Shown here in pieces: positions 4,281 to 61,231 of a stretch of DNA of 64,000 nt. Source of the stretch: Siphonodentalium dalli (taxonomy: Eukaryota; Mollusca; Scaphopoda; Gadilida; Siphonodentaliidae); NCBI GenBank assembly GCA_032622095.1, contig CP136063.1, positions 75,183,980 to 75,247,979 of the forward strand, written 5' to 3'. Every line of letters begins with the position of its first letter. The stretch's first letter is position 1. Below the pieces are notes generated by a model that was not told where the DNA came from, made no database searches, and was given only the letters and a program-made list of their open reading frames with translations. Made by a program: the position numbers and the translations under genes.

Positions 4281-4741
4281 ATGTGACCCGCCATATCAAA
4301 TCCAGTCGTAAGTCGGGATTTTTTTACCCTGTGCCAATGCATTCTCTTATATATGCGAGTCGACCATAGGTCGCCTCGCATATATAAGAGAATGCATTGG
4401 CCTAACAATTTTTTATCATTTTTTTTAAATGAATGTTTCTTACAATTTTTAGGACATAACATAAAAAACATCCATTACCCTGCAGGGAGCCCCACACATA
4501 TATAGAAGCATATAGAAGAGTGTCGTCTGCTCATGTTTGTCTGGGGCTCTGTATGGGTGAAATTATAAAATTGTTAAAGAATACAAGAACAAATTATTAA
4601 AATTGTAAAAAATTGTTAGGCCAATGCAGTCTCTTATATATGCGAGGCAACCTATGGTCGACTCGCATATATAAGAGAATGCATTGGCACAGGGTAAAAA
4701 AAATCCCGACTTACGACTGGATTTGATATGGCGGGTCACAT
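4281..4741. mobile_element. family-2 MITE carrying the double-hairpin core, copy 1
   Basis: Long near-perfect terminal inverted repeats begin ATGTGACCCGCCATATCAAA and run through AAGTCGGGA into the core CCCTGTGCC. Each arm therefore extends more than 100 bp. Hairpins sit at 4334-4400 and 4621-4687; the second has one substitution (GCAGT for GCATT). The spacer holds an AT-rich stretch plus a 60-bp segment containing GGGAGCCCCACACATATATA and GGGGCTCTGTATGGG. TA-rich flanks suggest a TA target duplication, but the superfamily is undetermined. There is no coding capacity. Confidence 0.8.
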
Positions 4742-5751
4742 ATATATATGTAAACTACGAAGTATAAATTGTTTTGACCGCAGCAATTTATAGCGCTGGT
4801 CGTTGATGTCACTAATATTTATAGTTCGATTTCATGACCTATTATGTCCTATTAAAGGTACACAAACCGATGCCATGGTCCCCGTATCATCAAATTCGAA
4901 CAACAACATTTCTTCAGAAGACTATCATTTAGTTATCAGAATCGATTAATTACCACAAAATAATTCTAACCACTGTCAACTGTGGTATAATATTTACCAA
5001 AACGTGTTATATATCAACATTATTTTTGTTCAACGCAATTTGGTATCAAGAGTATGTCGGCCGGCTCGTCGAATATTTACTATGCCGTCACATATTCCAG
5101 GTGGTGAAAAATAACATATTTCACAAATCGATATTTGATAACTCTGAGCTTTGATGGTTGGGTTTCTCGACTCGAATCAAATATATTTTATCACATAATC
5201 ACATTTTAGCAATGGAAAACGATCTCGAAACGGTTGGGGTTCGAACAAAATTAGTTTTTATTTCCTTATCACAACCAAAGAGGAAGTAAAGACACCTTCA
5301 AGCAGAAATATAGTGACATGTTAAATGTGTCTTTTCATGTGGACAAAATTGTTCAACCACCCTTATCACCAATGTTTATCTCAAAGTCAACACAAAATAT
5401 CCCAGCACAAATTGAATATAGTCTAATTAACATAATAATACAGTTTCGGAATTGAGATTGACGCCATTGCGCTATGCTCTTATGTCACTGCGCGTGCCGA
5501 TAATACACGTGTGTCTTACTAAAAAAATGAGGCCCTTATAGGGGCTAATTGTGTGATAAATTAATTTATTACATGGTCCGACCACTTTTCCATTCATTAA
5601 ACACATTATATAATAATTATATGCAACGGTCATTGCATGCATGGCAGGAAATTGTGCATATTCAAATGTATATTATTATTGCGCAAACGTGATTCGGAAT
5701 CCGGGGGGCAAGGAATGTAGAAGAATGCCGCTCATGTCAGCGAGTGTGGGC
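4742..5751. repeat. dispersed repeat C copy 1 (about 4850-5140), remainder unassigned
   Basis: The stretch 4850-5140 is about 80 percent similar by eye, in direct orientation, to 33603-33880. Shared landmarks are GATGGTCCCC, AGTTATCAGAATC, CACTGTCAACT, GTTCAACG-AATTTGGTATC, GGCTCGTCGAATATTT and GGTGAAAAATAAC. No termini were found. From 5140 to 5751 no feature was recognised. Confidence 0.55.
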
Positions 5752-5815
5752 TAAAATTACGCGGACTTATTGTTTTGTAATATGCATGCATATATGTAGC
5801 AGTTGAAATGGTTTC
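5752..5815 (+). repeat. 64-bp flank duplicate, left copy
   Basis: The stretch AAAATTACGCGGACTTA through GTTGAAATGGTTTC recurs at 6843-6906 with few changes. The two copies bracket a fold-back remnant and a poly-G/C-ended repeat. Confidence 0.7.
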
Positions 5816-6257
5816 AAGTTTTGACAGGGAACCTTATAAAGTCAAAACAAGAACGCGGGGAATATATTTCTTAGTTATTATCTGTTCTTAAGAATGAACT
5901 TCACTGTAGGTAAAGCTCCCAACTCAAACTTGCATGCTTTTCTGTGACTTGTGTGGGCCGATATCACATTAAACATTGAATAATTATACCCAGGATAAAT
6001 GCCATAATTGTCAGTGATGCAAAGTGAAATCGCTAAAAAAAAATCAATTAAATAGTGAAATTTCGAGTTGGGACCTTCACGTACAGTGAATTACATTATT
6101 AAGGAACAGATAATAACTAAGAAATATTTTCCCCGTGGTATTTTTCGACTTTATAAGGCTCCCTGTCAAAACTTCAAAAAGTGCTAAGGATTTGTACTGG
6201 TAGAATATGATCTCTACGGGCGTTAGCCAGAGTAGAGATTCGTAGCATGATCTAAAT
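5816..6257. mobile_element. fold-back element D, left-truncated copy
   Basis: The left arm (5816-5930, TTTTGACAGGGAACCTTATAA onward) and right arm (6060-6240, ending CTCCCTGTCAAAACTTC and GTAGCATGATCT) are inverted copies of each other. They match the fuller element at 31391-31890, whose outermost 70 bp are missing here on the left. No open frame of interest. Confidence 0.6.
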
Positions 6258-6289
6258 TTTACTGTGAAAAAATGGCATTTTCCCAGTCT

Positions 6290-6840
6290 GTTCAAGGGGG
6301 GGGGGGGGGACAAAAACAACTCCGGTTACGTATGCCGGGGTGGGTTGGTGATCCGCAACTCAAAATGTTTTTTCCTGCAAGTCTTTTTGACTGTGTTTGC
6401 AATGAGTTTGGCTAAAAACACCTTAGAATGTCAATATTAATATAAATGAAAAATTTCATGATGATGAGACAAACAGTATAGCCTGTAGCCTATGCTAATG
6501 GATTGAATTTTGACATCCAAGATAGCCGCTGGCAGCCATGTTTTTTTGGCCGAATGACCCCAAAATGACTCGTTCCTATATTTACATGTCAATGTTAACA
6601 TCCATGACAAATAGTATGCACAGAAATTCATATACAGCTGTTTACAGTGAATTTCCCCAGCAAATCTCTGTTTTAGTGCTAAAAGGGAGGTGGGTGTCCA
6701 AAAATGGTCGGGAAAAAACTTCCGAAAACTGAAAATAAAATTGACGCGGGGGTGGGTGGGTCCCAACAAGGGTCGAAAGGAAAAAATCAGCATATACGTG
6801 CCTGAACATTTGTCCGACCCCCCCCCCCCCCGGTATATTG
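6290..6840 (-). repeat. poly-G/C-ended dispersed repeat E, copy 1
   Basis: Begins with a G14 run (6297-6310), ends with a C14 run (about 6819-6832), and matches 59920-60470 in the opposite orientation. Shared landmarks: CAGCATA-ACGTGCCTGAA, GGGTGGGTCCCAACAAGGGTCGA, CAGCTGTTTACAGTG, ATGACAAATAGTATGCACAG, ATGACTCGTTCCTAT, GGCAGCCATGTTTTTTTGGCC and AACTCATTGCAAA. The 148-codon open frame on the minus strand spans it but resembles no protein. Confidence 0.65.
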
Positions 6841-6842
6841 GG

Positions 6843-6906
6843 GTAAAATTACGCGGACTTACTGTTTTGTTATTTGCATGCATGTATAAAGCCGTTGAAA
6901 TGGTTT
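6843..6906 (+). repeat. 64-bp flank duplicate, right copy
   Basis: Near-identical to 5752-5815 (ATTACGCGGACTTACTG, GCATGCATGTATA, GTTGAAATGGTTTC). It marks the right boundary of the inserted or duplicated 1.0-kb segment between them. Confidence 0.7.
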
Positions 6907-7285
6907 CGGTGCATGCTGCTCATTATACTTGTACTCTGATACTTTCATCGACCACACCTGCCAGCTATATGATCGGCGTTCTTGTGCGTGGTATATGCAT
7001 GCAAATCGACATATTAATAGATGAATCTAATTCTATTAATCCGGGAATCGATTTGCCAATCAACAGGTAATGGACATAAATTTATTTACAAAGCGGTCGA
7101 CAGGTAGAACGCATTCCGCGGGGTTTTGAGCCTTCACTCTTTTAGCGCTAATGGATAGATAACGCGGCGGTGAAACGAATTTATCACCCATAACGGCTAT
7201 ATCAATGAACGAGCATGGTTATGTGAATACACTAAACACTTTGACCTATGCATACTATACTAAATACTCATCGCCCTATAGCTCC
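6907..7285. other. intergenic, nothing recognised
   Basis: No open frame, repeat match or structural RNA was recognised. Confidence 0.4.
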
Positions 7286-7458
7286 CGCCGCCTCCCCTGT
7301 CTCTCCCTATCTTTCTCTTTCTCTGTCTCTCTCTCACTCTCTCCCCTCTCTACCCCTTTCTCTCTCCTCTCTCTATCTCGCTCGCCCCAACTCTCCATCC
7401 CTCTCTCTCCCTCTCACTTTCATTCTCTCCCGCTCCATCTCTCACTCTCCCCTCTCTC

Positions 7459-7499
<41 letters not shown>

Positions 7500-7625
7500 C
7501 TCTCTCTATCTCACTCTCTCCCTCTCTCGCCCCCTCTTGCTATCACTCACCCTCTCACTCTTTCCCTTCTCTCTCCCTTTCTCCCCCTATCACTCTCTTT
7601 CCCCTCTCTCTCACGCTCTGAGAAT
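7286..7625. repeat. CT-rich polypyrimidine tract
   Basis: About 340 bp of nearly uninterrupted C/T on this strand. The core is an uninterrupted (CT)n run at about 7464-7496. Overlapping open frames of 138 and 204 codons here are Ser/Leu-rich low complexity and not genes. Such tracts can adopt triplex (H-DNA) structure; whether this one does is inference. Confidence 0.9.
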
Positions 7626-7635
7626 CCATGCAGCT

Positions 7636-7864
7636 TCTCCAAGTATATATATAAAGTACATGACATTGAGTATATATATAAAGTACATGACATTGAGTAT
7701 ATATATAAAGTACTTGACATTGAGTATATATATAAAGTACATGACATTGAGTATATATATAAAGTACATGACATTAAGTATCTATATAAAGTACATGACA
7801 TTGAGTATATATATAAAGTACATGACATTGAGTATATATATAAAGTACATGACATTGAGTGACT
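7636..7864. repeat. 27-bp minisatellite, 8 copies
   Basis: Eight near-identical units of AGTATATATATAAAGTACAT plus GACATTG, with one T-for-A and one small variant. Because 27 is divisible by three, the array stays open in several frames on both strands and produces spurious periodic peptides. Confidence 0.92.
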
Positions 7865-8621
7865 TCCTTGTCGGTGATCGTATTAAAATGTCAGAATGAA
7901 AACGTTGAGATTTATCTGATATTTTGATTTTCCAACCAACATTTATGTGATTATATGCGCAATCTAGACCAATAGCTCGTAATTCTGATGAAGCATAGTC
8001 CTACACATACGGTCGAAGTTGGTATGCCTACTGCCAGTATTACGGTATACAATAAATCTGAACAATAACAGTCGGAAAATAATTTTTTCATTTGAGAATG
8101 TAGAGTGGTCGGGGATGCAGTCATACATTTATATAGATGTACATTGTTGTCCAAAAATATATTTATGAACATCTACTCGTCGACTCCTGAATTCCGCAAT
8201 TGTTTATCCGTTAAATGACAGGTCTCAAACCACATCCATCACAATTTAGTTGAAGTAAGATATCCAGTTGTCAAGAAAATTTGTCGATTTTAATTCCAAC
8301 TGTTTTGGTTGAAAACCTTGATTGCATGGAATGACTGTTTTTGCTTTGGCATTTTATAGCAAGTACGGTGATGGGCTCAGCAGAGTTCGCCTTGAATTTC
8401 TTTGTTCTTGCATGACAGCCGTGGGTTGGGTGGAATGTTCTTGTCTTGACAGGTCTTGACTTGTGTCTTGGGTCTGGGCTTTGTCGGAAGACTTGGCGGG
8501 GGCTTTCACAACGATTTGTTAGTAAAATGGATATAGCTTCGTCTAACTGTTCAGTGTTACTGGTACATGTATGTATAATGTTGATATTAGTTCAAACGCC
8601 TGCATATTTTTATAACTTCAG
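7865..8621. other. intergenic, nothing recognised
   Basis: No gene. A 76-codon open frame at 8446-8676 runs into the next element and has no recognisable features. Confidence 0.4.
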
Positions 8622-9020
8622 TAAGGTACGTTTAAGGAAAGTTTGCCTGGTATTTTTTGCGGCAATTTTGTCATAGAAAAGGATATGGTGCCATAATATG
8701 AACGGTAACATCCGCATGAAATGCACCTTTGCCAAGACCAACGACAATGAAAAGTACACTTGCTGTAGTTCCACATGTAACGGTGCTACTAACATTTGCC
8801 ATCAAATACCTGTCTGACATATTTTTTGCGAGATAATTACATGCTATTTACAGGTAAATTTCGGTATCATCGCCATACAGGTGAAATAGAGTTGTTACTT
8901 CTCACGCAGTTAGTTGTGGTTCATATGAATTTTATAAGCATTTTTGCTTTCGGTTTCTGACAAATTATAGTTTTCCATACCGAAATGCCTGCAAATAAAT
9001 TCCAGACAAGTGTGTTAGTA
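8622..9020. mobile_element. PIF/Harbinger-like MITE, diverged copy
   Basis: Left end TAA then GGTACGTTTA. The body aligns with the clean copy at 10796-11212 through GGTGCCA-AATATGAACGG, GTAACGGTGCTA, ATTTGCC-TCAAATACCTGT, TTGCGAGATAATT and AAATGCCTGCAAAT. The right terminus is decayed. Non-coding. Confidence 0.6.
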
Positions 9021-9197
9021 AGTTAAGTTAATTTGCTTCAAATATTTACCAAGTTATTTAACCTACCACCACCCACAGGTCACCACAAAAACGTGCGATT
9101 AATAGCCCAGGATTATAGATAGCTTTAAATTGACAATTATACATTCCGTAAATAAGTGTACGCTATTTTACACGCGTGGACACTAACGTTAAACAAT

Positions 9198-9818
9198 GGC
9201 TGCGGACACACATACCACAGTAGCGATGGCACAGTAGGTATGACAATTTATTATGGTGGAGTTTGGTGACAAATGGTCGTCATAATTACAATGCAATAGC
9301 TAGCCATGTCGCCCGCTGCATATTCGCACAATGCGTCTACCAAGCTCTACCAGTGTCGCGGTCGTTCTCTCAAGGATTTATCTACCTGAATGTCTTGTCG
9401 CTGTTGATCTTTACTCAACACGCAAACGTCCCAAAATAGAAAACTCAATTGGGGAACTGTCTTAATGCGCATGAAATTAATGTCAGTAGATAAACATGCA
9501 TTGAGATCATATCAATAAAACGTACTACGTGCATGATATGTGAGTGAATGGGGGATTGTCACGGTCAAACACAATTCTGGACGATCGATCGTGCAATTAT
9601 ATATATAATGTAGCAAAACGTACTGAGTATATATAGAGATCAACTTTGGTGAAACGCAATGGGTTAATTGGTCCAGTCGACTCATTATGCTGAAACTCAG
9701 CGGGCAACATGGCTAGCTATGGCATAGTAATGGTGATGACCACTTGTCACCAAACTCCACCATAATAAATTGTTACACCTACTGTGCCATCGCTACAGTG
9801 GTACGTGTCTCCGCAGCC
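9198..9818. mobile_element. long-inverted-repeat element, 118-bp arms
   Basis: Arms at 9198-9315 and about 9701-9818 are inverted copies. Shared words include GGCTGCGGA, GTAGCGATGGCACAGTAGGT, TTTATTATGGTGGAGTTTGG, TGACAA-TGGTC and ATAGCTAGCCATGT. The 385-bp interior is unrelated and has no open frame of note. A non-autonomous long-TIR element is the likely class, but no target duplication could be defined. Confidence 0.65.
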
Positions 9819-10266
9819 GATGTTATCACAGACCCCATATCAATGCAATTCATTGAAGGAGAAGATAGCACTATACAATCTCTTGTGTGTGATTCTTTAT
9901 CACGCAGCGACCGTGTTCCCCAATTAGTGTAATATTGTGTGTGATGTCGCATCCGTCACAAGAATATATGAATACGTTTTGCATCCGTATCGCTTAAAAT
10001 TGAATATATTACGGGATCGAGGCTAATTTTTTGGAACCAATTTTAAAGACATAGTATGGACTAAATTAATTCAATAAAACTGATAAGTTAGTTAACATGC
10101 ACTATATTTCCACTTGAAGAATGTAGGAATAAACTAATATTGTCTAAAATTCCTATCACATCGACTGTACTATTTATATGAACACAACGACTAGTGCAGC
10201 GGCAAAACGCCAAAAGTGATCGGGTACCCCTCCCTAGCCATCGCAGAACAAGTCGAAGCCGATTTT
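9819..10266. other. intergenic with a 5' fragment of TTAA element F
   Basis: The stretch 10042-10092 (TTAAAGACATAGTATGGACT and CTGATAAGTTAGT) matches the first about 50 bp of the TTAA-bounded family at 34128 and 57278. The rest is unassigned. Confidence 0.45.
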
Positions 10267-10666
10267 TTAACCCTTTACCCAACAAACCGGCCAAAACCGG
10301 CCAAATAAAGATTCAACAGCCTAAAATATCTTCGGTCTGTCTCAATAGAACCATACACATATGGATATCATTGGAACCGGCTCCTTGACCACATTGTGAT
10401 AGTTACAGTTATGCCCTGTGCCAATGCATTCTCTTATATATGCGAGTCGACCATATGTCGCCTCGCATATATAAGAGAATGCATTGGCCTAAAAAAATTC
10501 TTTTTTTAACACTTTTTACCATTTTTTCTTACTTTCTTTAACAATTTTATAATTTTTAATGTGTTAAGCCAATGCATTCTCTTATATATGCGAGGCGACC
10601 TATGGTCGACTCGCATATATAAGAGAATGCATTGGCACAGGGCCCTTCTGTTGGGTAAAGGGTTAA
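10267..10666 (+). mobile_element. TTAA-flanked (piggyBac-like) MITE with double-hairpin core, copy 1
   Basis: Perfect TTAA duplications (10267-10270, 10663-10666) bound a 392-bp element with inverted ends CCCTTTACCCAACA / TGTTGGGTAAAGGG. TTAA targets and CCCTTT-type ends are characteristic of piggyBac-like elements; the assignment is by these features only. A unique 140-bp left part contains the ACCGGCCAAA duplication. The core 10414-10642 has hairpins at 10421-10487 and 10569-10635 with an 80-bp AT-rich spacer. No coding capacity. Sister copies: 19603, 29580, 31955, 60832. Confidence 0.88.
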
Positions 10667-10795
10667 AAGGAGAAATATACAATGTTCACGAAAATGATAG
10701 TGAAATATAGCGGAATTGATGGTGGCTATTGTTTCAACTATACGCACAAATGTAAATATTTACTACTTTATTCTGGACGAATTATTGGATGGTAA

Positions 10796-11212
10796 GGCTA
10801 CGTTCATACGCTGGCAAGTTTGCACGGTATGTTTTTATGGGCATTTCGTCACAGAAAAACCACATGGTGCCAGAATATGAACGGAACCGTGCACATAACA
10901 TGCATCTTTACCAAAGCGAAAGACATGAGAAGTAACATTTATCTTATTCCACTTGTAACAGTGCTATTGGAATTTGCCTTCAAATACCTGTATGATTTAT
11001 TCTTGCGAGATAATTGCACGATATTTACAGGCAAATTCCGGTAGCATCGTTACTAGTGGAACTACAGAGATTTTAGTTCGCACGTATAGTTCGCTGTGGC
11101 ACAGATGCACTTTATGTGCATGTTTCCGTACATATAATGGCACCATATCGTTTTCTACGACAAAATGCCTGCAAATCATACCGTGCAAACTTGCCAGCGT
11201 ATGAACGTACCC
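10796..11212. mobile_element. PIF/Harbinger-like MITE, complete copy
   Basis: Flanked by a TAA duplication (10793-10795 and 11213-11215). The 36-bp terminal inverted repeats match at 35 positions: left GGCTACGTTCATACGCTGGC, right inverted GGGTACGTTCATACGCTGGC. The inverted repeat continues patchily inward (GGTGCCA, TTTGCCTTCAAATACC). A TWA target site and GG-starting ends fit PIF/Harbinger. Relatives at 8622 and about 61895. No transposase. Confidence 0.82.
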
Positions 11213-11356
11213 TAAGCATACGGAAATGATTCCGTCAATTATAGTCAGTGCATGTAATTTGTTCATAACAACGCCCCTACATGTGTTCTGCCTATTTAGA
11301 AATAGACATTTATGAATACATGCAGCTACTTTTTGCACATGTTCCGGCCACGTCAC
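11213..11356. other. short unassigned spacer
   Basis: Lies between the PIF-like MITE and the large homology block; nothing recognised. Confidence 0.4.
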
Positions 11357-13672: not shown

Positions 13673-14043
13673 CTTAATATTCTAGTGTATAGACTGAAGA
13701 AGTGCCACCAGAAAGACATTACATATAACGTTTGATAATGAATTATTCACCTTAACTATATATAGTGAGCCAACGGGTGCTCGTTTTATGGCTGGACAGC
13801 CACAGGCCTTTAAAATGTGTTCAAATAAAACGCTTTATATGTATACATGTATATGAGTTGTACTCAAAAGTTGGTATGGGGAATTCCAGACATATGTAGA
13901 TCCCTGGATATCCCCGGTGAATCGGGAAATCGTCAATTGATGAAGAAAATTATGTTTTCTTGTTGAATGAACACGGTCCGCTTCGACGAACGCTCGGATA
14001 TCAACATCGATGTAATCTTATACCGTCGGAATATTCCGTAAAC
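13673..14043. other. intergenic, nothing recognised
   Basis: No open frame or repeat identified. Confidence 0.4.
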
Positions 14044-14480
14044 GATCGGGATTTTGTTACCCTGTGCCAATGCATTCTCTTATATATGCGAGTCGACCAT
14101 AATATAAGTCGCCTCGCATATATAAGAGAATGCATTGGCCTAAAAAAAATTATCTTTTTTTTTAAATAAATGTTTCTTACAATTTTTAGGACATAAAATA
14201 AAAAAACATCCATTACCCTGCAGGGAGCCCCACACATATATAGAAGCATATAGAAGAGTGTCGTCTGCTCATGTTTGTCTGGGGCTCTGTATGGGTGAAA
14301 TTATAAAATTGTTAAAGAATACAAGAAAAAATTATTAAAATTGTAAAAAATTGTTAGGCCAATGCATTCTCTTATATATGCGAGGCGACCTATGGTCGAC
14401 TCGCATATATAAGAGAATGCATTGGCACAGGGTAAAAATATCCCGACTTACGACTGGATTTGATATGGCGGGTCACATAT
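14044..14480. mobile_element. family-2 MITE with double-hairpin core, copy 2
   Basis: Core 14060-14432 with hairpins 14067-14138 (loop carries an extra ATAT) and 14359-14425. The spacer is almost identical to copy 1, including GGGAGCCCCACACATATATA. The right outer repeat (TCCCGACTTACGACTGGATT through GCGGGTCACATATA) is intact. The left outer repeat is reduced to GATCGGGATTTTGTTA, so the left end is truncated or diverged. Confidence 0.8.
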
Positions 14481-17965: not shown

Positions 17966-18239
17966 AGAATAATGTGCCACTGTTTGAAAACAACATTGTC
18001 ACCCACTATATAATAATCGCTGGTTGAAAAATCAAAATACATGTATGAGAACAATTTCAACATGTATATATGTGGTGCAAAATGTCCAACTAATGTTGAA
18101 AATTTTGACAACAATCCTAAAATCTACGGCTATATACAACTGGCATTCAAACTTTAGCACTCAAAGGTTTGCTATATAAAAAGACATCTATATGGATAAT
18201 TTGATCATTTGGCAGGCACTTTGTCAGCTGTGAAAATGT
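17966..18239. other. intergenic, nothing recognised
   Basis: No feature supported. Confidence 0.4.
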
Positions 18240-19522: not shown

Positions 19523-19602
19523 ACAAATTACGTAGTGATGAATCATGCATAACTTACTATATAGAGAAGAATATACCCAATATCATCGACAGCGAATGTG
19601 CG

Positions 19603-20004
19603 TTAACCCTTTACCCAACAGAGCGGCCCTGTGCCAATGCATTATCTTATATATGCGAGTCGACCATAGGTCGCCTCGCATATATAAGAGAATGCATTGG
19701 CTTAACACATTAAAAATGATCAAATTGTCAAAGAATGTAGAAAAAATTATAAGAAAAAATGGTAAAAAGTGTTTTTTTTAGGCCAATGCATTCTCTTATA
19801 TATGCGAGGCGACCTATGGTCGACTCGCATATATAAGAGAATGCATTGGCACAGGGCATAACTGTAACCATCACAATGTGGTCAATGAGCCGGTTTCCAA
19901 TGATATCCATATTTGTATGGTTTTATTGAGACAGACCCAAGATAATTTAGGCTGTTGCAGCTTTATTGGCCGTTTTTGGCCGGTTTGTTGGGTAAAGGGG
20001 TTAA
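19603..20004 (-). mobile_element. TTAA-flanked (piggyBac-like) MITE with double-hairpin core, copy 2
   Basis: TTAA at 19603-19606 and 20001-20004 with inverted ends CCCTTTACCCAACA. Inverted relative to copy 1: the unique ACCGGCC-rich arm is on the right. Hairpins begin at 19634 and 19782. One substitution in the left hairpin (GCATTATCT) and an extra G in the right end (AAAGGGG). 394 bp between TTAAs. Confidence 0.88.
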
Positions 20005-24843: not shown

Positions 24844-25858
24844 GCCCGGCAACGGACTGGCATCATTGTATATGTTCTCGATTGTTATGGGCGTAATGTT
24901 ACCATTACTTCACCCCGGGCAACGCGCTGATATTACAACTGTTAAAAAGTTGTCCGACATCAAATGTACATGTAAAATACGTAAAATATAAGGTCTGTTC
25001 GATTACATGTACGATCACAAAACGAACGTATGCGATCGTTTTGCTTGGCGAGCAACCAAACTCCATGCAGCGCCTTCTACGTTAGCACTGCGATTCACGC
25101 AGCACCTTCTACGTTAGCACTGTCCCATGCAGCGCCCTCTGTGTTAGCACTGTCCCATGCTACGTTAGCACTGCGATATTGCACTGCCACAAGGATGGTA
25201 CTTTGCGGACCGATAAATCTATTTTTACATATCGTCAGAACTATATTTATTCACATATTATCTTATTTTGACCACCAAAAGTTTGCAATAATGGCAATTA
25301 TTTCGGTATTGATAAGAGCAATAGAGACTGAGTTAGACATAGACAATTTAATCCTAAAACATAAGAACTAAGAACACGTAAGAAATCCTTACCAAATGTC
25401 CTTATGGCAGTGATATCTCAACGGCAACGGACTGGCATCATTTGATCTGTTCTCGATTGTTATGCGCGTAACGTTACCATTACTTCGGGGCAACGCGCTG
25501 ATATCACATCTGTTAAAACGTTGTCCGACATAAAATGTACATGTAAAATACGTATAAGGTCTGTTCGATTACATGTATGTACGATCACAAAACGAACGTA
25601 TGCAATAATGGCATCATTGGATCTGTTCTCGATTGTAATGCGCGTAAGTTACCATTACTTCCGGGCAACGCGCTGATATCACATTTGTTAAAATGTTGTC
25701 CGACATAAAATGTACATGTAAAATACTTATAAGGTCTGTTCGATTACATGTACGATCACAAAACGAACGGATGCGACCGTTTTGCGTCGCGAGCCCATCG
25801 TCATGCGCGCAACGTTGCCACCATTTCACCCCGGGCAACGCGCTGATATCTCACCACA
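24844..25858. repeat. three copies of a 185-250-bp unit with an inner 32-bp repeat
   Basis: Copies at about 24844-25060, 25418-25603 and 25606-25858 share GGCAACG-ACTGGCATCATT, TGTTCTCGATTGT, GGGCAACGCGCTGATAT, TTGTCCGACAT-AAATGTACATG, AAGGTCTGTTCGATTACATG and ATCACAAAACGAACG. Between copies 1 and 2, 25070-25175 holds about four units of CATGCAGC-CCTTCTACGTTAGCACTG. Non-coding. Confidence 0.75.
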
Positions 25859-29565: not shown

Positions 29566-30045
29566 AGAACCAGTTCTGGTTAACCCTTTACCCAACAAAC
29601 CGGCCAAAACCGGCCAAATAAAGCTTCAACAGCCTAAAATATCTTCGGTCTGTCTGAATAGAACCATACAAATATGGATATCATTGGAACCGGCTCCTTG
29701 GCCACATTGTGATAGTTACAGTTATGCCCTGTGCCAATGCATTCTCTTATATATGCGAGTCGACCATAGGTCGCCTCGCATATATAAGAGAATGCATTGG
29801 CCTAAAAAAAATCTTTTTTTTAACACTTTTTACCATTTTTTCTTACATTCTTTAACAATTTTATAATTTTTAATGTGTTAAGCCAATGCATTCTCTTATA
29901 TATGCGAGGCGACCTATGGTCGACTCGCATATATAAGAGAATGCATTGGCACAGGGCCCTTCTGTTGGGTAAAGGGTTAAAACACAGACTCAACAGCTAT
30001 CACTACAGCTTAGCTGTGCATGAGTCTGTGTTTTAACTAGAACTG
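29566..30045. repeat. hairpin split by a TTAA MITE
   Basis: Removing 29584-29980 joins CAGTTCTGG-TTAA to AACACAGACTCA. The resulting 25-bp arm matches the inverse of 30021-30045 (TGAGTCTGTG, TTTTAACTAGAACTG) at 24 of 25 positions. The loop contains CAGCTATCACTACAGC. This symmetry shows the TTAA was single before insertion. Confidence 0.85.
29580..29980 (+). mobile_element. TTAA-flanked (piggyBac-like) MITE with double-hairpin core, copy 3
   Basis: TTAA at 29580-29583 and 29977-29980; 393 bp between them. Same orientation as copy 1 and nearly identical to it. Hairpins begin at 29731 and 29882. Inserted into the TTAA of a pre-existing hairpin, which gives direct evidence of TTAA duplication. 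Confidence 0.92.
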
Positions 30046-30540: not shown

Positions 30541-30546
30541 TTGACT

Positions 30547-31954: not shown

Positions 31955-32345
31955 TTAACCCTTTACCCAACAGAACGGCCCTGTGCCAGTGCATTCTCTT
32001 ATGTATGCGAGTCGACCATATGTCGCCTCGCATATATAAGAGAATGCATTGGCTTAACACATTGAAAATTATAAAATTGTTAAAGAATGTAACAAAAAAT
32101 GGTAAAAAGTGTTAAAATGTTAGGCCAATGCATTCTCTTATATATGCGAGGCGACCTATGGTCGACTCGCATATATAAGAGAATGCATTGGCACAGGGCA
32201 TAACTGTGACCATCACAATGTGGTCAATGAGCCGGTTCCAATGATATCCATATTTGTATGGTTCTATTGAGACAGACCGAAGATATTTTAGGCTGTTGAA
32301 GCTTTATTTGGCCGGTTTTGGCCGGTTTGTTGGGTAAAGGGTTAA
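31955..32345 (-). mobile_element. TTAA-flanked (piggyBac-like) MITE with double-hairpin core, copy 4
   Basis: TTAA at 31955-31958 and 32342-32345; 383 bp between them. Oriented as copy 2. The left hairpin has GTGCATTCTCTTATGTATGC changes; the right hairpin matches the other copies. The AT spacer is about 10 bp shorter than in copy 1. Confidence 0.88.
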
Positions 32346-40995: not shown

Positions 40996-41253
40996 TCACC
41001 AATCCGACATCCAACATTGGCTGTTGGGCCCCCTAGAGTCTAAAGCACCGATTTCTCCGATCTCTTTGTCGGGATATATGATTGGTGTCAGCACGACCGG
41101 TTGAAAGTGAATGACTTCCTTCACCCATGGGGGCAGATAACAATTAACTTCCCCATCATCACAAAAGCGCCAAATGTCACCAGGTGACGCCCCATTTGTA
41201 CGTACATATACGCGCACCGTCTTCCTGTCCGTCAGGGACTTCCATCGGGTCAT
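40996..41253 (-). CDS. 85-codon open frame of unknown nature (candidate exon or element fragment)
   Basis: ATG at 41253 to TGA at 40996. Base composition and third-position G/C are higher than in the surrounding AT-rich DNA, and the peptide is not low-complexity. It begins MTRWKSLTDRKTVRVYV and contains Trp, Cys and Pro in a protein-like mix (NGASPGDIWRFCDDGE, LPPWVKEV). An in-frame TAG lies six codons upstream of the ATG. Just beyond the 5' end is a 33-bp minisatellite. No family was recognised and no splice signals or second exon could be linked. With so many open frames of this size expected by chance, it is only weakly supported. Confidence 0.2.
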   Translation of the reverse strand: MTRWKSLTDRKTVRVYVRTNGASPGDIWRFCDDGEVNCYLPPWVKEVIHFQPVVLTPIIYPDKEIGEIGALDSRGPNSQCWMSDW

Positions 41254-41262
41254 AAGCGCGAT

Positions 41263-41372
41263 ATGAACCTATTTAGAGGTCGAAATAAGTCTAATATGAA
41301 CCTATTTAGAGGTCGAAATAAGTCTAATATGAACCTATTTAGAGGTCGAAATAAGTCTAATATGAACCTATT
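41263..41372. repeat. 33-bp minisatellite, about 3.3 copies
   Basis: Units of ATGAACCTATTTAGAGGTCG followed by AAATAAGTCTAAT, spaced exactly 33 bp. Confidence 0.92.
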
Positions 41373-41412
41373 TCGAAATGAATTCAGTCAAGTATGGTAC
41401 TATTTAAACAAT

Positions 41413-41820
41413 ATGTGACCCGCCATATCAAATCCAAATTTTTTACCCTGTGCCAATGCATTCTCTTATATATGCGATTCGACCATAGGTCGCCTCGCAT
41501 ATATAAGAGAATGCATTGGCCTAACAATCTTTTACAATTTTAATAATTTTTTCTTGTATTCTTTAACAATTTTATAATTTCACCCATACAGAGCCCCAGA
41601 CAAACATGAGCAGACGACACTCTTCTATATGCTTCTATATATGTGTGGGGCTCCCTGCAGGGTAATGGATGTTTTTTTATTTTATGCCCTAAAAATTGTC
41701 AGAAACATTTATTTAAAAAAAATGATAAAAAATTGTTAGGCCAATGCATTCTCTTATATATGCGAGGCGACCTATGGTCGACTCGCATATATAAGAGAAT
41801 GCATTGGCACAGGGTAAAAA
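41413..41820. mobile_element. family-2 MITE with double-hairpin core, copy 3 (inverted, right end missing)
   Basis: Left outer repeat ATGTGACCCGCCATATCAAA is present but shortened; the GTCGTAAGTCGGG portion is absent. Core 41446-41814 with hairpins beginning at 41454 and 41741. The spacer is inverted relative to copies 1 and 2 (CCCATACAGAGCCCC on this strand). After CACAGGGTAAAAA the outer right repeat is missing. Confidence 0.8.
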
Positions 41821-52715: not shown

Positions 52716-53351
52716 ATAGCGGACAAACTACTTCCCCCGGGAAAACGCAACCACTCGCCAGCTGATGGTGCGACACACTCTTCGATTGATTTCACAGAAA
52801 ATGTTATTTCGTTGTCGTCTGCTGGATTGAAGCGCGTTGTCCTTTCATGAGTTCTATTCTCGACATGTCTCGTATGTCCCCGCAGCTCGTTAACGCGTGA
52901 CGTCTGAGCTTAGTTAATCTCCGTTATCGATGCGCTCGCTACATCTCCCGTTGTACACTATGCGTTTTTGGCGCTAATGCGGTAAGAAAAACACGCGACC
53001 GATCGTTTTAAATACATTCACCTCGTGTGTACTCAGAGATGTTTCCGACATGCAGGGGGTGGCCAATATTTTCGGTATTAATTTTGAAAAATTCAAACCT
53101 GAAACAACATTATAGTTGGAAAATTCAGACCAAAAGTATGTTAAATTTGTTCTCAAGCATGAAAGTCTGATCTTCCAATCATGGCTTCGTGTCTAATTTG
53201 TTTATTTTGACCAAAATACGAATATACAGCGAGGTTTAGCCACATGTACGTGTAACATGTAATGTCTGTTATTGTCCTATTGCTATCGAGATGCTCTTGG
53301 GGGGGGGGGAAATCTCATGTGATTTTACGGCGCCAATCCTACATATCTACA
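52716..53351. other. intergenic; fragment of repeat A near 53060-53140
   Basis: No gene. A G10 run lies at 53300-53309. The stretch 53060-53140 contains TTGGAAAATTCAGACC wording related to repeat A. Confidence 0.4.
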
Positions 53352-53568
53352 TACAGTAATGCTCTAATTAATCGACCTCTTAACCAAAGCAGAATTATGG
53401 GTAACTTTTCAGGATTTAGTCGGAAATATGGCTTGTTGCCATTCATCGGAAAGCTCTCCACGAGAGCTTTCCGATGAATGGCAACAAGCCATATTTCCGA
53501 CTAAATCGTGAAAAGTTACCCATAATTCTGCTTTGGTTAAGAGGTCGATTAATTAGAGCATTACTGTA
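53352..53568. mobile_element. mariner-like hairpin MITE, near-perfect palindrome
   Basis: 107-bp arms (53352-53458, 53462-53568) around a 3-nt centre differ at one position (G at 53412, whose partner should be C). Ends TACAGTAATGCTC / GAGCATTACTGTA give a TA target with CAGT-type termini, as in Tc1/mariner MITEs. A transcript would fold into a very stable hairpin and could feed small-RNA pathways; this is inference. Confidence 0.88.
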
Positions 53569-53965
53569 TATTGGTCAAACGTGCAGGAAAATAAGCTCTA
53601 ATGGATATCCCGTCTAAAAATATTGAAAACTTATGGCGATAGAGCATTTGATTCGTATATGCTCCAAATGTTTGGAACTCAACGAGACACGGCACAATAT
53701 TTTCAAACTCTCTGACCGAATGCAAGTATGTGTTAAAGAGTGAATTATTCTGTGATCACCATTGGGAATTTATCTCAGATGTTGTATGTTTGTGTGAATC
53801 TAATGTCATCTCTTGTGTATATGCCTATGGTGTGTGTGTATATATGTATGTTTGTATCACGTGTGGTAGACGGCAGGGTACTAGTATAGGAATGTAAGCG
53901 CTCTGGGCCGTCTGGGATAAAACGCTATATAAATATTATTTATTATTATTATTATTAAGAACGGG
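53569..53965 (+). repeat. probable LINE/SINE 3' end
   Basis: GTAAGCGCTCTGGGCCGTCT, GGATAAAACGCTATATAAAT and then ATTATTTATTATTATTATTA (53896-53957) is the characteristic tail of CR1/L2-type retroelements and SINEs that borrow it. The upstream sequence has no recognisable coding motif. Confidence 0.6.
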
Positions 53966-54313
53966 GAATATGTTTTAAAGCTTGTGTGAAAACGCTCTGT
54001 AAAAAATCGCTCTTTAAAATCGCCTCTTCGAGAAATAAAACGCTCTTTAAAATACTCTTTAAATGTTAACAATGTTAACGGTGCCAACAGATCGTGTTAA
54101 TGCCAGTGCCTAACATTTTAAACAGGTTTACGCTGGTATCGCATATTAAACATTGCATAAGGATCGGATGGACTCCGAGTGTATGTTAATACAGACTGGT
54201 TGGCGCTACTATATATAGCGGGAAATCCTGCGGTTCGGGAAATAGAATGCCTACACCAAGTAATCAGACCAACGATTTATATGTGGTATGTCGTTAACTT
54301 AGACTGGGGATTT
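53966..54313. other. unassigned; repeated CGCTCTTTAAAAT words
   Basis: 53990-54065 repeats CGCTCTTTAAAAT and similar words about four times. Otherwise nothing. Confidence 0.4.
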
Positions 54314-54868
54314 TTAAAGGGATACTGTACCCAAATGTTGTTGTTTCTTTCTTTAGTCTCTGAGTTGTAGAATAGGGTAACCAGAAGTCTGTTAAGTACG
54401 AAGTAATGTGCCGGATGGCAGATTAGCCGGAATGCGAAAATACCAATTATCGTTGTCGAGTAATTTTTGGACAGTTTTCAAGCAAATGTATCAAATAAAT
54501 GTTATATTATATGCATACTAGTCCCATATACTCATTAAGTTATTGGATAGTCACTAGTCAGTGAGTGGCTTGAGTTTACGCCCCTTATCAACATAATTTT
54601 TTTACACGATCATGTGTGCCATGCACGCTTTGCACAATCCACTATCCGTGAACTATTTTGATTACGGAAATTCGTAATTTAATTTATGACTCCAGCCATA
54701 AATCAAATTTATATCAAATTATTAACTTTGATTTTAAGATAACCTAATAACCTGAACGTTTACAGAATACATCTTGAACTCAAATTACTTAGTTTTCTAT
54801 ATATTATCGATATTAGATCGTTGTTATCACCGGGAATTTATTGAAAATGGCGTACAGTACCCCTTTAA
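54314..54868 (-). mobile_element. TTAA-flanked element I, copy 2 (uninterrupted)
   Basis: TTAA at 54314-54317 and 54865-54868 with ends TTAAAGGGATACTGTACC and GTACAGTACCCCTTTAA. It aligns inverted with 27782-28997 minus its Helitron and supplies the empty site. Internal landmarks: AAGTACGAAGTAATG, GGCAGATTAGCCGGAAT, TCAGTGAGTGG-TTGAGTTTACG. Confidence 0.85.
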
Positions 54869-55149
54869 ACTTGAATATTCAGTATAGAAAGAGTCTGGCT
54901 CGACGCATGTAGTGTTCGATGACGCATAACATGTTCGATATTGTCCCAGAAATGTACCACGAACAACGGTGCGGCGTTTCATATTTTAAATCGGCATACT
55001 GCATGGGCATCGTTCTCTGGATTTCTGTCCATTCCGCCGCCTATCACTAATCTGGGCGATAGAAAGAGAAAGCTGGTATTTTTCTGGATTCATTTGAAAG
55101 CCATCGTGCGCATATTTCTACTGGCGTGGAGAAGATAACTGTAAATGAG
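54869..55149. other. unassigned spacer
   Basis: No feature supported; a 65-codon frame has no recognisable domain. Confidence 0.35.
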
Positions 55150-57277
55150 TGCCTACGAACGGAGAGCTGCCATTTGCGTCGGGGCCCATCAATTAAGAAT
55201 GGGAACTTGACAGAGCGGTAATATTACGGGAAGCCATCACCGGATCATTTCCGTTCCCAAGTTAGTGTTTTACCGCGGGTCAATATCGGCTCCTTTCCTG
55301 CGTGTTACTTAATGGCGCGGTTATCAAAGAGCGAGGGAAATATTTTTGGTAACATAAATATTATATAGCACTCTTTATGCATATGCAGCGTTTTCTGAAC
55401 AGATTATGTCAGTGCACTGAGTTAATATTCTTTAATTATTTATTCAGGATTATATTATAGACCTCCATGCAGTTACAACTTACAGCATCAATATAAAACC
55501 TAATTTAACGTCGTCTTCTTGTGAAAATGTGTCGAAAATATCATAAACTAGGCCTATAAATGACAAAAATACCAATTTGTTATTAAAAAGTTAACAAACA
55601 AATGTTGTTGTTGTTGTTGTTGCTGTTGTTGTTGTTGTTGTTATCCCTCTAAATCACAGAAACGATTTGATGTATACATGTAAATACATATAAATAAATT
55701 CCATATCACATAGCCACATATCACATTATCATCATAGCTTATTTCGTGCACCAATTGTTTTACAATTCTGTTATTTTATGCACTAGAATCTGTCTTTTAC
55801 CTCGGTACTCATCAATTAAGAATGGGAACTTGACAGAGCGGTAACATTACGTAAAGACATCACCGGGTCATTTCCGTTCCCAAGTTAGTGTTTTACTATA
55901 TGGGTTAATATTACGGCGTGGTTATACAAGTGCAAGGAATTTTTTTTTATCATATGTAGCTCTCTTTAGTGCATGGTTTTCTGGAAAGATTATGTTAGAT
56001 AATGCGCTGTTCTTCTTTAAATATAGTCAGGATTCTAGTTAGTTAAACGTATTTGTATTTCCAATAAAGGACATGTTAGACAATATGGATTAGCGCACAA
56101 GTGCTGGCCACAAACTTTCCCCGCTCCGATATAACGCAAATGCAATGCGCGGCAATAAATGACAATGTTTAACAATATAATATACATATACATGAGGAAA
56201 TAAAGTGGTTGCAATTGGACATGAGAAAAGAACTAAAAGATGATTGATCTCTTCCCGGAAGTGTTTGATTCGGCAACATCAGTATTTCTATAAACCTTTG
56301 ACTACTTCTATGCAATGTTATACCAGGAAGAAACAGTGGTGAAATCGTTCTATAGACAAAATTTTATGAATCCACATTTAAAGATTTGCATGTTTAACAG
56401 TCCAAATTATTCGAAAGTTTATAGAGTAACATATTCTGTCCTGAGTTCAGATATATTTTGTTCTGGAAAACAAAAACAATCTTGGAGGCTGTAGCAGAAT
56501 ACAAACACTCATTTATAGGTCTCAAAAAACAACAAACAAACAAAACGTAAAAACAGAAACAAAATAACGATAGTCAGTCAGGGTTCTATAGGCCTCCAGA
56601 CGCTCCAGTTACAACTTTCAACATCAACATAAAAACCTAATTTAACATAGTTTTCTTCTTTTTTCTTTTGAGAAACTGTTGAAAACTAAATATAATAAAC
56701 TAGGCCTATAAATGACAAAAAATTTATATTTGTTATTACACAAGAAATTATGGCCTTCCGCCATGAGAACAAATCGGACGATCTTTAATTTAATAAATTA
56801 AAAAAATTTAAATAGGATATTTTACAATATATGTATATTTATATCTGTTTATGTGTTATGTGTGTTTGGTGTACGAGCATGTTGATTATCGAAGTAAAAG
56901 ATTTTAATTTGTTTATACACGTTCCCCGTGCTCACCAGGCAACGCATATTAATTTTCAAATGGATAGTGGATTGGGAATCGGAAGGCCTTGTTCTTCGTT
57001 GAATTCCATTGTCGTTTCACCGGAGAGGCTACAATTCGAATATGGTATTATACAATGGTTGTTTGTATACACATGTGTCTAGTAAGATTAAATCATGCAG
57101 TTATACTTCTACCAAAGCTAGTAAGAACCGCCACTGGGATACACGATTTAGTGTGTACCCTCGATACTCACGCGAGAATACGACGTGGATGAGAGCCAAG
57201 GACGTAATCCACGAAAAGCGAAAACAATAGAGGACGACAACACTGTACAAGCCTTCGGCGCCTGTCGTCCTAAAAAA
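55150..57277. repeat. degenerate two-part repeat series V-U, copies 1-3
   Basis: U parts (TTAAGAATGGGAACTTGACA, GCCATCACCGGATCATTTCC, AGTTAGTGTTTTACCGCGGG, GGCGCGGTTATC) occur at 55188-55400 and 55808-56035. V parts (ACCTAATTTAAC, TAAACTAGGCCTATAAATGA, TTTGTTATTA) occur at 55480-55795 and 56600-56760. A (TTG)n tract is at 55602-55641. From 56761 to 57277 no further unit is visible; a few short open frames there have no support. Confidence 0.65.
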
Positions 57278-58475
57278 TTAAAGACATGTTATGGATTTGT
57301 TCGGGTGCCTGAAAATGATAAGTTAGAATTCAGACGCTATGCCCATTGAGGGAATATAGAATTCTACTAACATAGCCAAAAATCTCAAGAAATCGACCAT
57401 AAAACTCCATAGAAAAAACCGTCTGAACTACGCGCAATTGTAAATATTTACATCTCGATTCGGGACCCAACAATCGGCGATAAACTAATGCAAATGATTT
57501 CGCCATCGATGCTCATTACATTTAATAAACATATCAGACTGACGGTGTGTGTTGTAAATTTGGATTAATATTCATAAAAATAACTACTTTGAGCAAGATT
57601 ATTCTCAATTTCTATTTGATTAGGGTGGATACACACATGCATGTAATCTCTGTATGTAAAATACATGGCCACACCGATAATTGACAACATTAATCACCTG
57701 AGCGCGAGCGGTTCATTTTTAACAGGCCAGACAAGTGAGTAGTCATAAGCGAAGTCAAACTCTCTGCTATCAGGACATTTAAGGCCAGTCCAAAAACATG
57801 TCTTCTCTTACGGATGTGGAAATTAGTTAAGTCTGTGTGATATCTGGCATTTTATTAATGCACATCACCAGAAGCGACACATCTGGTGTACACAGGCTTG
57901 ATATAGAACATTTTCGACCATGATGCTTGCTTAGCGTATGGTTTCGAAAGCTTCAAATCACTAAGGGACTTAGTTGAATGTATCGGTCGGAATAATCTGG
58001 TCAAGAAGGTACAATATATGTTTTACTTAAATAGCTCAGAGTTAGTCTGGTAACTTTCGGGATCATATATAGCCCCTAGTCGGGGGTCATATATAGCCCC
58101 TGCGTCAGGAAATCCTGATAATATTGCCCCCATGTTGGGGATCATAGCCCCTGGGTTGGGGAAATCCTGGGGCCATCATCGGTATACATATCAAGAGAGG
58201 ACTGACAATGGTTTAAACAGAAAGTCCAACATTTGGGTTATCGCGCGAACAATTATTCTAAGCGGCCTGACGACTTCGTTCAGTCAACGGTCCTCTGCAC
58301 GCTCAGAGCTATGCTCACTATGGTCAAACATAGCCGCAATGATTGGGTTGTCAACGGACATATATTACATGGTCTGTATGATCCATGTAAAACTCCAAAT
58401 ACACGATAGTTACAGAGATTACATGCATGTGTGTATCCACCCTTGCCCATACCGAAGTGTTTCACATCACTTTAA
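57278..58475 (+). mobile_element. TTAA element F, copy 4, interrupted by a Harbinger-like element
   Basis: Left TTAA 57278-57281 and AAGACATGTTATGGA. The homology stops at TCTATTTGAT (57620) and resumes at GAAGTGTTTCACATCACTTTAA (58454-58475). The gap is the 820-bp insertion at 57623-58442. Confidence 0.78.
57623..58442. mobile_element. PIF/Harbinger-like non-autonomous element
   Basis: Terminal inverted repeats of about 31 bp beginning GGGTGGATACACACATGCAT, with an inexact TTA / TTG flank (57620-57622, 58443-58445) compatible with a TWA target. Nested in a TTAA element whose other copies show the uninterrupted state. The interior has a short degenerate tandem of GGGATCATATATAGCCCC (58059-58170). 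A 116-codon frame overlaps the right end but shows no transposase feature. Confidence 0.75.
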
Positions 58476-59620
58476 CAAATAAATGTTGTTGTCCCTCTAA
58501 AACATGGAAACGATATGAAATAAACATGTAAATATACCTAAATAAATAAATTACATACATGTATATCACACAACATAGCTTATTTCGTGCACCAATTCTT
58601 GGTCCAGCTCTGTTATTTTATGCACTAGAATCTGTCATTTACGTTGGGGCCCATCAATTAAGAATAGGAACTTGACGGAGCGGTATCATTACGTGAAGCC
58701 ATCAACGGATCATTTCCGTTCCCAATTTAGTGTTTTACCGCGGGTCAATATCGCCTCCTTTCTTGTGTGTTACTTCATGGCGCGGTTATCAGAGAGCGAG
58801 GGACACATATTTTTGGTAATATCTAGCCAGCTGGTGCATGGTTCTCTGAACAAATTATGTTAGACAACGTACTGTGGACTGAAGTACTCTTCTTTAAAGG
58901 ATTACACTGATGTATTATTTTTTGCCCGCCAATCCACTAAGCACGTTGCCAAAAAGATTGTTGTGGTCGGCCGCCCGTAACTGAAGTTATGGCGATTCAT
59001 GCGATTGAATATTATTGAATGTGGATTATGCAGTCTGAATCGTTAATATTTCTTCATGTGACGTCATATGAGGGACTACAAGCGGGACTACACAGTTTCA
59101 AACATGAAAGCTTGCCGCAATTGGCTTTAATTTATTTACTGATTGTTATACAGAAACGGCTTGCCCCTCGGAACTGAAAATGTGTACAAATGGGTAATTT
59201 GACCCGGAGGATCTTATTATATAGGTCCTGTTGACATCAGATGTCTTAAAGGGGCACTAATAATGAACTACATACCCAACATAGCTTCTTTTGACCAGGT
59301 ACATCTGCAACATCGATATAACATAATTTATCATCGTTTACTTCTTTGTTCTGCAGTACGGCGAAAAACTGTTGAAAACTAATTATTACATATAAACCAG
59401 ACCTATAAATTAAAAAAATAGCATTTTGTTATTGAAAAATTAACAAGTATATGTTGTTGTTCGCCTAAAACATGGAAACGGTATGAAATAAATACATACA
59501 TAAATTCAATATTGAACAATATATAGTGTCTTTCGTGCAACAATTCTTGTTCCAATTTTGTTACTTTATGCACTGTAGAATCTGTCATTTACATCGGGGC
59601 CCATACCGCGTGTTACTTGT
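58476..59620. repeat. degenerate V-U repeat series, copies 4-5
   Basis: V4 58476-58640 and U4 58641-58870 are followed by a unique stretch, then V5 59285-59595 (AAACATGGAAACGGTATGAA, CTTTCGTGCAACAATTCTTG, TTATGCACT-TAGAATCTGTCATTTAC). The U5 remnant jumps from GGGGCCCAT to CCGCGTGTTACTT, an internal deletion relative to U4. Confidence 0.65.
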
Positions 59621-59919
59621 TTTGGCAACATTGGGGACGTGCCAGGGGGTCCCGATGGGGGTGTCAAACTTGGAAATCCCCCCCCCCGAAGGAACCATAC
59701 CATTTTGGCACCCCTGCCCGGGTAGTAGGAACGTTTGACTTTGGTATAAATAAACAATAATTTCACCACACTAAATACTGGTTGGAAAATCAGAGCATTT
59801 GTTTTAAATGTCCAGCTAATGACCGTTTCAACTGTTGACATTTTTGCCAACGTTGGGGTAGGGGTTAAGTCACTCCACAACACTCTGTTAATTATGGTAA
59901 TGTTTGTCCCTATCAGGGG
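59621..59919. other. unassigned; C-rich run and repeat A wording
   Basis: C10 at about 59679-59688. The stretch 59765-59870 contains GGTTGGAAAATCAGAGC and CAACTGTTGACATTTTTGCC, related to repeat A. The 166-codon minus-strand frame across it looks like an artefact of low complexity. Confidence 0.4.
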
Positions 59920-60470
59920 GGGGGGGTTGGAAAAAAAATTCAGGCACGTATGCTGATTTTTACCTATCGACCCTTGTTGGAACCCACCCACCCCGCGTCC
60001 AAATTGTTTTCCGTTTTCGGCAGTTTTTTCCGACCATTTTTGACACCCACCCACTCCTTTTAACACTAAAACAAAAAACAGAGATTTGCGGGGGAAAATA
60101 CACTGTAAACAGCTGTATATGAATTTCTGTGCATACTATTTGTCATGGATGTTAACATTGACATGCAAATAGGAACGAGTCATTTTGGGGCCATTCGGCC
60201 AAAAAAACATGGCTGCCAGCGGCCATCTTCGATTTCAAAATTTGCAACAAAATACAATACGATAACTGCCTGCAGTCAGTTTAGCAGTTAGAATTACATT
60301 ATTTCTCTTATTCTAAGATGTTTTATGCCAAACTCATTGCAAAAACAGTCAAAAAACTTGCAGGAAATTTTTTTTTGAGTTGCAGAATAAATAATTTGTT
60401 GGTCCCATCGACCACCCACCCACCCCGACATACGTGGCAGCAAAAATCCCCTCTGTCCCTATCTATATAC
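59920..60470 (+). repeat. poly-G/C-ended dispersed repeat E, copy 2
   Basis: Starts with a G10 run (59918-59927) and aligns inverted with 6290-6840; the two share at least nine landmarks in the same relative order. The right end is CCACCCACCCACCCCGACAT. Confidence 0.65.
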
Positions 60471-60831
60471 GGCAGAAATTAACGATAAAGTGTGGAAAAG
60501 CAATTGACGTTATTACATCTGTATGATAAAACGTCGGCTACCATTAAGGACCACAGTGGAAATAAGTGAGCTTTGGCTTGCTTTCCTGCATGTGCGCTCC
60601 TTGATGGCAATCGATGGCATGACTTGTCAGACCGAACATATTCATGTGTATATTTCTCCCCTACTTCTCGATCTATCTCTCTACCTCCAACTCTACCTTT
60701 CGTTGTCTTACTTATCTCCTGTTATCTTACTGGGCTATCTTAAGCAACATGACAGTCCTGTTGAGGGAGGAGAGTGGGATAGCACGGGTTGATTATGAGT
60801 ATTTATTTAGTAGTTATTATACTAAGCTGGG
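60471..60831. other. unassigned spacer
   Basis: No feature supported. Confidence 0.35.
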
Positions 60832-61231
60832 TTAACCCTTTACCCAACAGAATGGCCCTGTGCCAATGCATTCTCTTATATATGCGAGTCGACCATAGTT
60901 CGCCTCGCATATATAAGAGAATGCATTGGCTTAACACATTAAAAATTATTAAATTGTTAAAGAATGTAAGAAAAAATGGTAAAAAGTGTTAAAAAAGATT
61001 TTTTTTTAGGCCAATGCATTCTCTTATATATGCGAGGCGACCTATGGTCGACTCGCATATATAAGAGAATGCATTGGCACAGGGCATAACTGTAACTATC
61101 ACAATGTGGTCAAGGAGCCGGTTCCAATGATATCCATATTTGTATGGTTCTATTGAGACAGACCGAAGATATTTTAGGCTGTTGAAGCTTTATTTGGCCG
61201 GTTTTGGCCGGTTTGTTGGGTAAAGGGTTAA
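60832..61231 (-). mobile_element. TTAA-flanked (piggyBac-like) MITE with double-hairpin core, copy 5
   Basis: TTAA at 60832-60835 and 61228-61231; 392 bp between them. Orientation as copies 2 and 4. Hairpins begin at 60861 and 61011; the first has a C-to-T-like loop change (ATAGTTCGCC). Confidence 0.88.

Follow-up and report, generated by a model that had tools for sequence, protein, structure and literature searches.

The window analysed here is a stretch of 64,000 nucleotides from the scaphopod Siphonodentalium dalli (GenBank assembly GCA_032622095.1, contig CP136063.1, positions 75,183,980 to 75,247,979 of the forward strand). It contains eight copies of a hairpin-bearing core, each starting with CCCTGTGCC and finishing with GGCACAGGG, which lie within miniature inverted-repeat transposable elements (MITEs) of two families, termed A and B. 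The core is composed of two hairpins in mirror orientation that flank an AT-rich spacer, and in the genome it was found in at least four families (A, B, C and D) with unrelated ends. The elements of the window were located as follows (window coordinates):

4282..4740, + strand: family B, with both outer ends and 46-bp terminal repeats; core 4327-4694, hairpins 4333-4401 and 4620-4688
10267..10666, + strand: family A, TTAA to TTAA, 400 bp, long flank on the left; core 10414-10642, hairpins 10420-10488 and 10568-10636
14044..14477, + strand: family B without the left outer end; core 14060-14432, hairpins 14066-14139 (enlarged loop) and 14358-14426
19603..20004, - strand: family A, 402 bp, long flank on the right; core 19627-19856
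29580..29980, + strand: family A, 401 bp; core 29727-29956, hairpins 29733-29801 and 29882-29950
31955..32345, - strand: family A, 391 bp; core 31979-32198
41414..41820, - strand: family B without the right outer end (right limit approximate); core 41446-41814, hairpins 41452-41520 and 41740-41808
60832..61231, - strand: family A, 400 bp; core 60856-61084
~1440..1841, no strand assigned: damaged half-core; a tandem array of spacer units occupies 1440-1813, and a single hairpin arm with 3 mismatches comes after it at 1815-1841

The five TTAA-bounded elements of family A (391-402 bp; two in one orientation, three in the other) lie where a preliminary description of the window, made from its letters alone, had placed them, and the 16 hairpin occurrences it reported were recovered as the two hairpins of each of the eight cores. 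Of its three ATGTGACCC elements, by contrast, only the one at 4281 has both outer ends; that at 14044 retains the right outer end only and that at 41413 the left outer end only. The array at 1440-1813 repeats the AT-rich spacer of the core in units of ~32, 42 and 74 bp and ends in the decayed hairpin arm. At ~41250-41400, a short tandem repeat with a unit like AATATGAACCTATTTAGAGGTCGAAATAAGTCT adjoins the left side of the family B element at 41414, as judged by eye.

Fifteen of the 16 hairpins in the window measure 69 bp, and one, with an enlarged loop, 74 bp. The 69-bp form comprises perfect arms of 27 bp, one T·C mismatch (G·A on the other strand), five further pairs and a 3-base loop, which corrects the 67-bp palindrome with 26-bp arms described before. 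The earlier statement that the core is inverted at two scales was borne out, the left and right hairpins being reverse complements of each other. When one hairpin was folded as DNA, the two strands gave z = -15.6 and -16.0, and 0/200 shuffles folded as well. A search of the window against Rfam matched no family, and none of the 10 long open frames searched against Pfam (out of 21 listed for the window) gave a match above the cut-off.

In the genome (2.23 Gb, 9 contigs), the exact 20-bp core end CCCTGTGCCAATGCATTCTC is present in 152,002 copies (76,182 + 75,820), compared with 0 copies of a control consisting of the same 20-mer read backwards; a hairpin word searched in viral contigs gave 0 matches. 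These exact ends were classified by the bases directly in front of them. The 20-mer was preceded by G (family A) at 88,919 ends, by TTA (family B) at 25,377, by ATA (family C) at 18,142 and by AAA at 14,040 (one side of family D, plus some C copies such as L011). Flank words of several families thereby account for 146,478 of the 152,002 ends (96.4%), with the reservation that these words are short stand-ins for the families, include chance matches and undercount the divergent family D. The remaining 5,524 ends could, by our own estimate, be explained by mutation of one to three flank bases, which makes it unlikely that free cores with random flanks form a large class, whereas the TTA and ATA classes would partly mask any free core that targets TA.

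As one sample, 20 ten-kilobase stretches were taken at round positions over the nine contigs. Hairpin arms with at most 5 mismatches were present in 7 of the 20, and 18 elements were recognised by reading (4 A, 3 B, 2 C and 9 D, with several truncated copies; a weak arm with 6 mismatches at L017 was excluded from this count). A targeted sample comprised 19 loci of contig 1 (L035-L053), which were picked for paired exact core ends and are therefore not random; these gave 12 A and 7 B elements. L039 shares its insertion flanks with L045, and L040 with L044, so that each pair represents a duplicated block and 17 independent loci remain. Further loci were the first hits (L001-L008, partly overlapping), six TTAA-flanked hits (L029-L034) and smaller sets.

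The earlier claim of a module common to elements with unrelated ends was supported by these samples and extended from two families to at least four. Family A, the first of the two described before, has TTAA followed by CCCTTTACCCAACA. Family B, the second, has a two-base target duplication, mostly TA, followed by TGTGACCCGCCATATCAAATCC, and carries the ends TGTGACCCGCC; judged by the 2-bp flank matches, its true end is probably TGTGACC. Family C has TTAA followed by CCCTTTGAGTGCC (CCCTTTGAGTGCCAGG) and carries a single hairpin towards one end and a GGCCGATCTCATCGGCCC palindrome towards the other. Family D has TTAA followed by CCCTTTCATGAC and contains two hairpins ~28-30 bp apart (one in some copies), with inner flanks that differ between the two sides. 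The outer parts of A and B showed no similarity to each other by blastn. Their spacers align at 77-85% over 53-61 bp, so that the spacers of these two families are not unrelated.

Copies of family D differ by 6-17% from a rough 8-copy consensus (partial copies included), compared with a divergence of about 2-4% outside the hairpins in A and B, which points to D as the oldest family and to a hairpin that outlived at least one older burst. At L022:89-1576, a D element is apparently split by ~1.4 kb of other sequence (only both ends were read); D would then predate that insertion. In the usual forms of A, B, C and D, the core lies ~24-46 bp from at least one end. A symmetric A element of 555 bp carries the 147-bp flank on both sides (L029), which allows the usual 400-bp A to be interpreted as a form with one flank deleted; in our own reading of the letters, the junction of this deletion fits CC microhomology. 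Next to another A element, at L003:2320-2469, a second near-perfect palindromic stretch with GGAAAGCTCTCGGCGAGAGCTTTCC at its centre was noticed by eye.

TTAA was present on both sides in 23/23 rows of family A (among them L029 on both strands, the duplicated blocks L003/L005 and L040/L044, and two rows shifted by one base) and in 4/4 rows of family C (3 independent), whereas D showed it at both ends in 2/6 rows and at one end only in 4/6. In family B, the 2-bp flanks matched in 8 of 11 rows (TA..TA in 6, TT..TT in 2), corresponding to 7/10 independent rows because L039 and L045 represent one insertion seen twice; the window copy at 4281 is among the three rows without a match. The ends of A, C and D (CCCTTTACCC, CCCTTTGAGTG and CCCTTTCATGAC) all fit CC[C/T]T. 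In most B copies, TA flanks the core itself on either side; around the core in A or D, no target duplication was seen.

The consensus hairpins of A and B are identical, at 69/69 positions in each of the two. With the copies chosen by search word left out, the changed cells within family A amounted to 10/1104 in hairpins, 19/611 in spacers and 45/1463 in outer parts; the difference between hairpins and outer parts gave p = 1.5e-4, in a comparison whose cells are not independent, since A has subfamilies. Over 11 copies of family B, 22/1186 cells were changed in the hairpin columns outside the search word.

Covariation was evaluated in a set of 18 hairpins (16 distinct) chosen from 55. Paired cells made up 91.9%, compared with 28-54% when the arms were slid by 1-3 columns, and 7/31 pairs were changed on both sides, a value reached by 9/500 shuffles. 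The covariation score of 0.160 was reached by 0/500 shuffles, although relatedness alone can raise a score above shuffles. When ten D hairpins were compared with the A-type hairpin, 24 cells were altered on both arms and yet paired (expected 1.8; maximum 9 in 2000 trials). Among hairpins of exactly 67 columns whose arms have at most 6 mismatches, oriented so that the mismatch reads T·C and not G·A, 52/52, from all four families, carry it at positions 27/41. Between families, the hairpins stay paired through matching changes in the two arms, and the T·C mismatch does not vary.

The preliminary description had considered that the core might itself be mobile, which the loci examined did not support. 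No core-only element was seen among the 18 elements of the 20 sampled regions (0/18) or at the targeted loci (0/19), a search that was not an exhaustive scan. TTAA directly precedes the core at only 315 of the 152,002 ends, and of the six such ends that were fetched, three belonged to B elements, one to a D, one to an A that lacks an end, and one to an orphan half-core (L034) in which no outer end was recognisable. The candidate of a core that exists as a free TTAA element was rejected on the strength of this count and these examples. At L071 and L072 (one duplicated block), both outer ends of B have been lost and the inner B flank is kept.

Core-free relatives were searched genome-wide for families A and B only, with exact 12-base flanks required. 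For A (inner flanks 0-25 bp apart), a single place was found; it holds CCCTGTGCCAATG and represents a deletion inside the core. The centre of L055 is a symmetric A whose core is reduced to CCCTGTGCCAATG, so that the two long flanks lie almost back to back. For B (0-28 bp), three places were found, one with a spacer remnant, one with a CCCTGTGCC..GCACAGGG remnant and one ambiguous. With these flanks, no clear case was found of an A or B MITE that predates insertion of the core and survives without it. Three short-spaced B cores, considered as candidate A/B recombinants, proved to be internal deletions of B, two of them from the same duplicated block. Of the exchanged module proposed before, the sharing between families holds; as for the exchange, descent with replaced ends is therefore equally possible. 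Given the near-absence of core-free A and B elements and the lack of free cores in what was read, the core acts like a built-in part of one non-autonomous family after another.

Transposases of a suitable kind are encoded in the genome: the piggyBac transposase family PF13843 gave 128 matches, many of them in long open frames (116 of 649 first-look candidates were scored), and 0/14 control genomes were positive in the same search. Many of these frames comprise 500-700 codons, and in one group, with a 584-codon frame, the match to the family is split into two pieces.

The reading we favour, with a probability of roughly 0.4, is that the core is a cis-acting MITE module that was retained while the outer ends, and hence the transposase used, changed; its function is inferred. 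The core would have passed through successive MITE families as their outer terminal sequences, which determine transposase and target site, gave way to others. New families would arise when the core becomes joined to the ends of another element. The hairpins may have been kept because they help mobilisation, as suggested by the presence of one module in several families with differing ends and targets and by its persistence through bursts of different age. In the simplest form, they would act as palindromic near-end sites that are bent or bound by a transposase or host factor, or as cruciforms. According to the accessible part of PMC11707139, piggyBac-type transposases bind palindromes near their ends through paired C-terminal domains; by analogy, this model could give the proposed sites a concrete form in the TTAA families, and it leaves B unexplained.

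Several observations weigh against this reading. Family B does not use TTAA and does not fit a binding site for piggyBac alone. The near-invariance of the hairpins despite differing spacers, asserted in the preliminary description, holds in A (10/1104 vs 19/611) and has no clear case in B, where the three copies gave 6/388 changed cells in hairpins, 16/644 in spacers and 5/296 in outer parts. The paired changes represent few events inherited by many copies. A position near the end is not general, as the core of the symmetric A lies 147 bp from both ends. Family C has one hairpin, and one-hairpin copies of A and D exist (L042, L011), so that two hairpins are not strictly needed for copy survival. 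In the 501-bp stretches downstream of 12 of the 128 transposase matches, neither the hairpin nor the ends of A, C or D were found, and none of these stretches reached a recognisable transposon end. A broader form of the favoured reading, in which a transferable module works with more than one transposase superfamily and its mirror-image mismatched hairpins let TTAA or TA elements reach at least ten thousand copies, probably via a host factor or DNA structure rather than the binding site of one transposase, appears doubtful to us.

The main rival, which we consider rather unlikely although still the strongest alternative, is that the core is a passenger that was caught in one element, passed on by nested insertion and internal deletion, and spread by good outer ends, its conserved look reflecting the youth of A, B and C. 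The low divergence of A and B outside the hairpins (about 2-4%) would be expected from such a history, as would B hairpins that are not significantly more conserved than their surroundings and the persistence of internal core deletions (L003, L036, L042, L055 and L071-L073). Yet the same passenger would have to sit in at least four families, core-free A and B are nearly absent, paired changes preserve the hairpin in D, and the consensus hairpins of A and B are identical though their spacers are only 77-85% alike.

It is improbable that the core, with CCCTGTGCC..GGCACAGGG as its ends, was at one time an independent transposon and inserted itself into other MITEs. In all four families it is bounded by the same sharp ends, its CCCT fits the CC[C/T]T piggyBac ends given in the accessible part of PMC2872659, and most B copies have TA on both sides of it; on the other hand, no core-only copy was present among those examined (TTAA precedes only 315/152,002 ends, and the six fetched were not free), no target duplication was seen around the core in A or D, and no host without the core was found for A, nor a clear one for B. 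Still less probable is a hairpin that acts at the transcript level, for example as a small-RNA source or a decoy affecting silencing of the element. Its 27-bp perfect stem with mismatch and short loop would be processable if transcribed (as judged from a fold with DNA parameters), and the copy number is very high, but no Rfam family was matched in the window and two mirror hairpins are unnecessary for such a role.

In a literature search for a hairpin core common to MITE families, which did not extend to subscription papers or Repbase, only a report on coral elements came close. The accessible part of that report (PMC2872659) describes the Acropora CMITEs, TTAA MITE families with different terminal repeats whose internal region is more alike between families than the ends; they are ~100 bp long with a 75-base internal region, and the coral genome has piggyBac-like transposases and one composite family, CMITE-IN. 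In that part of the text, the authors leave the origin and role of the shared internal region unexplained. As far as that text allows a comparison, A, C and D resemble the CMITEs in sharing a hairpin among TTAA families with different ends, whereas the shared part here is a 69-bp hairpin, single or double, which is also present in a family marked by two-base (mostly TA) duplications and reaches a far higher copy number (152,002 exact ends). The CMITE 60-mer gave no convincing match by blastn against the window and all fetched loci (best E 0.11). The coral CMITEs are a precedent within TTAA families; the two target-site classes and the double hairpin are new.

With piggyBac-type TTAA MITEs in general, A, C and D share the outer TTAA, the CCCT ends and the absence of visible coding capacity, but differ in having long hairpins common to several families. 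Family B likewise resembles Tc1/mariner-type MITEs in its two-base duplication (mostly TA), inverted terminal repeats and lack of visible coding capacity, and is unlike them in that its interior is the core of TTAA families. Mitochondrial repetitive hairpin and double-hairpin elements reportedly represent a further case of repeated hairpin DNA that invades genomes repeatedly; these are organelle elements, and nothing in the present data ties them to the core in sequence or mechanism. The ends of piggyBat and piggyBac, as described in the accessible part of PMC11707139, are similar in having palindromes near the ends, there bound by paired C-terminal domains; those palindromes measure 14-19 bp and belong to autonomous elements, as opposed to 69 bp here, with no autonomous carrier found among 12 partial flanks.

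The case bears on what makes some MITEs so numerous. It extends the coral observation to a much larger data set, and a module found in families with unrelated ends suggests that such a module may help these elements spread. Because at least four high-copy families, which use two kinds of target site, carry the one internal module, the role of internal structure in their success can be tested by one substitution series.

Some copies of the core may have been multiplied together with their surroundings. On contig 1, core ends recur at near-constant steps of ~14.56 kb at 4 places (735748-779416) and of ~11.2 kb at 9 places (831192-920823), which suggests tandemly duplicated blocks containing an element. 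The pairs L039/L045 and L040/L044, at ~1.79 Mb and 3.59 Mb of the same contig, have identical insertion flanks, with at least one pair in opposite orientation, and suggest a duplicated block in each case.

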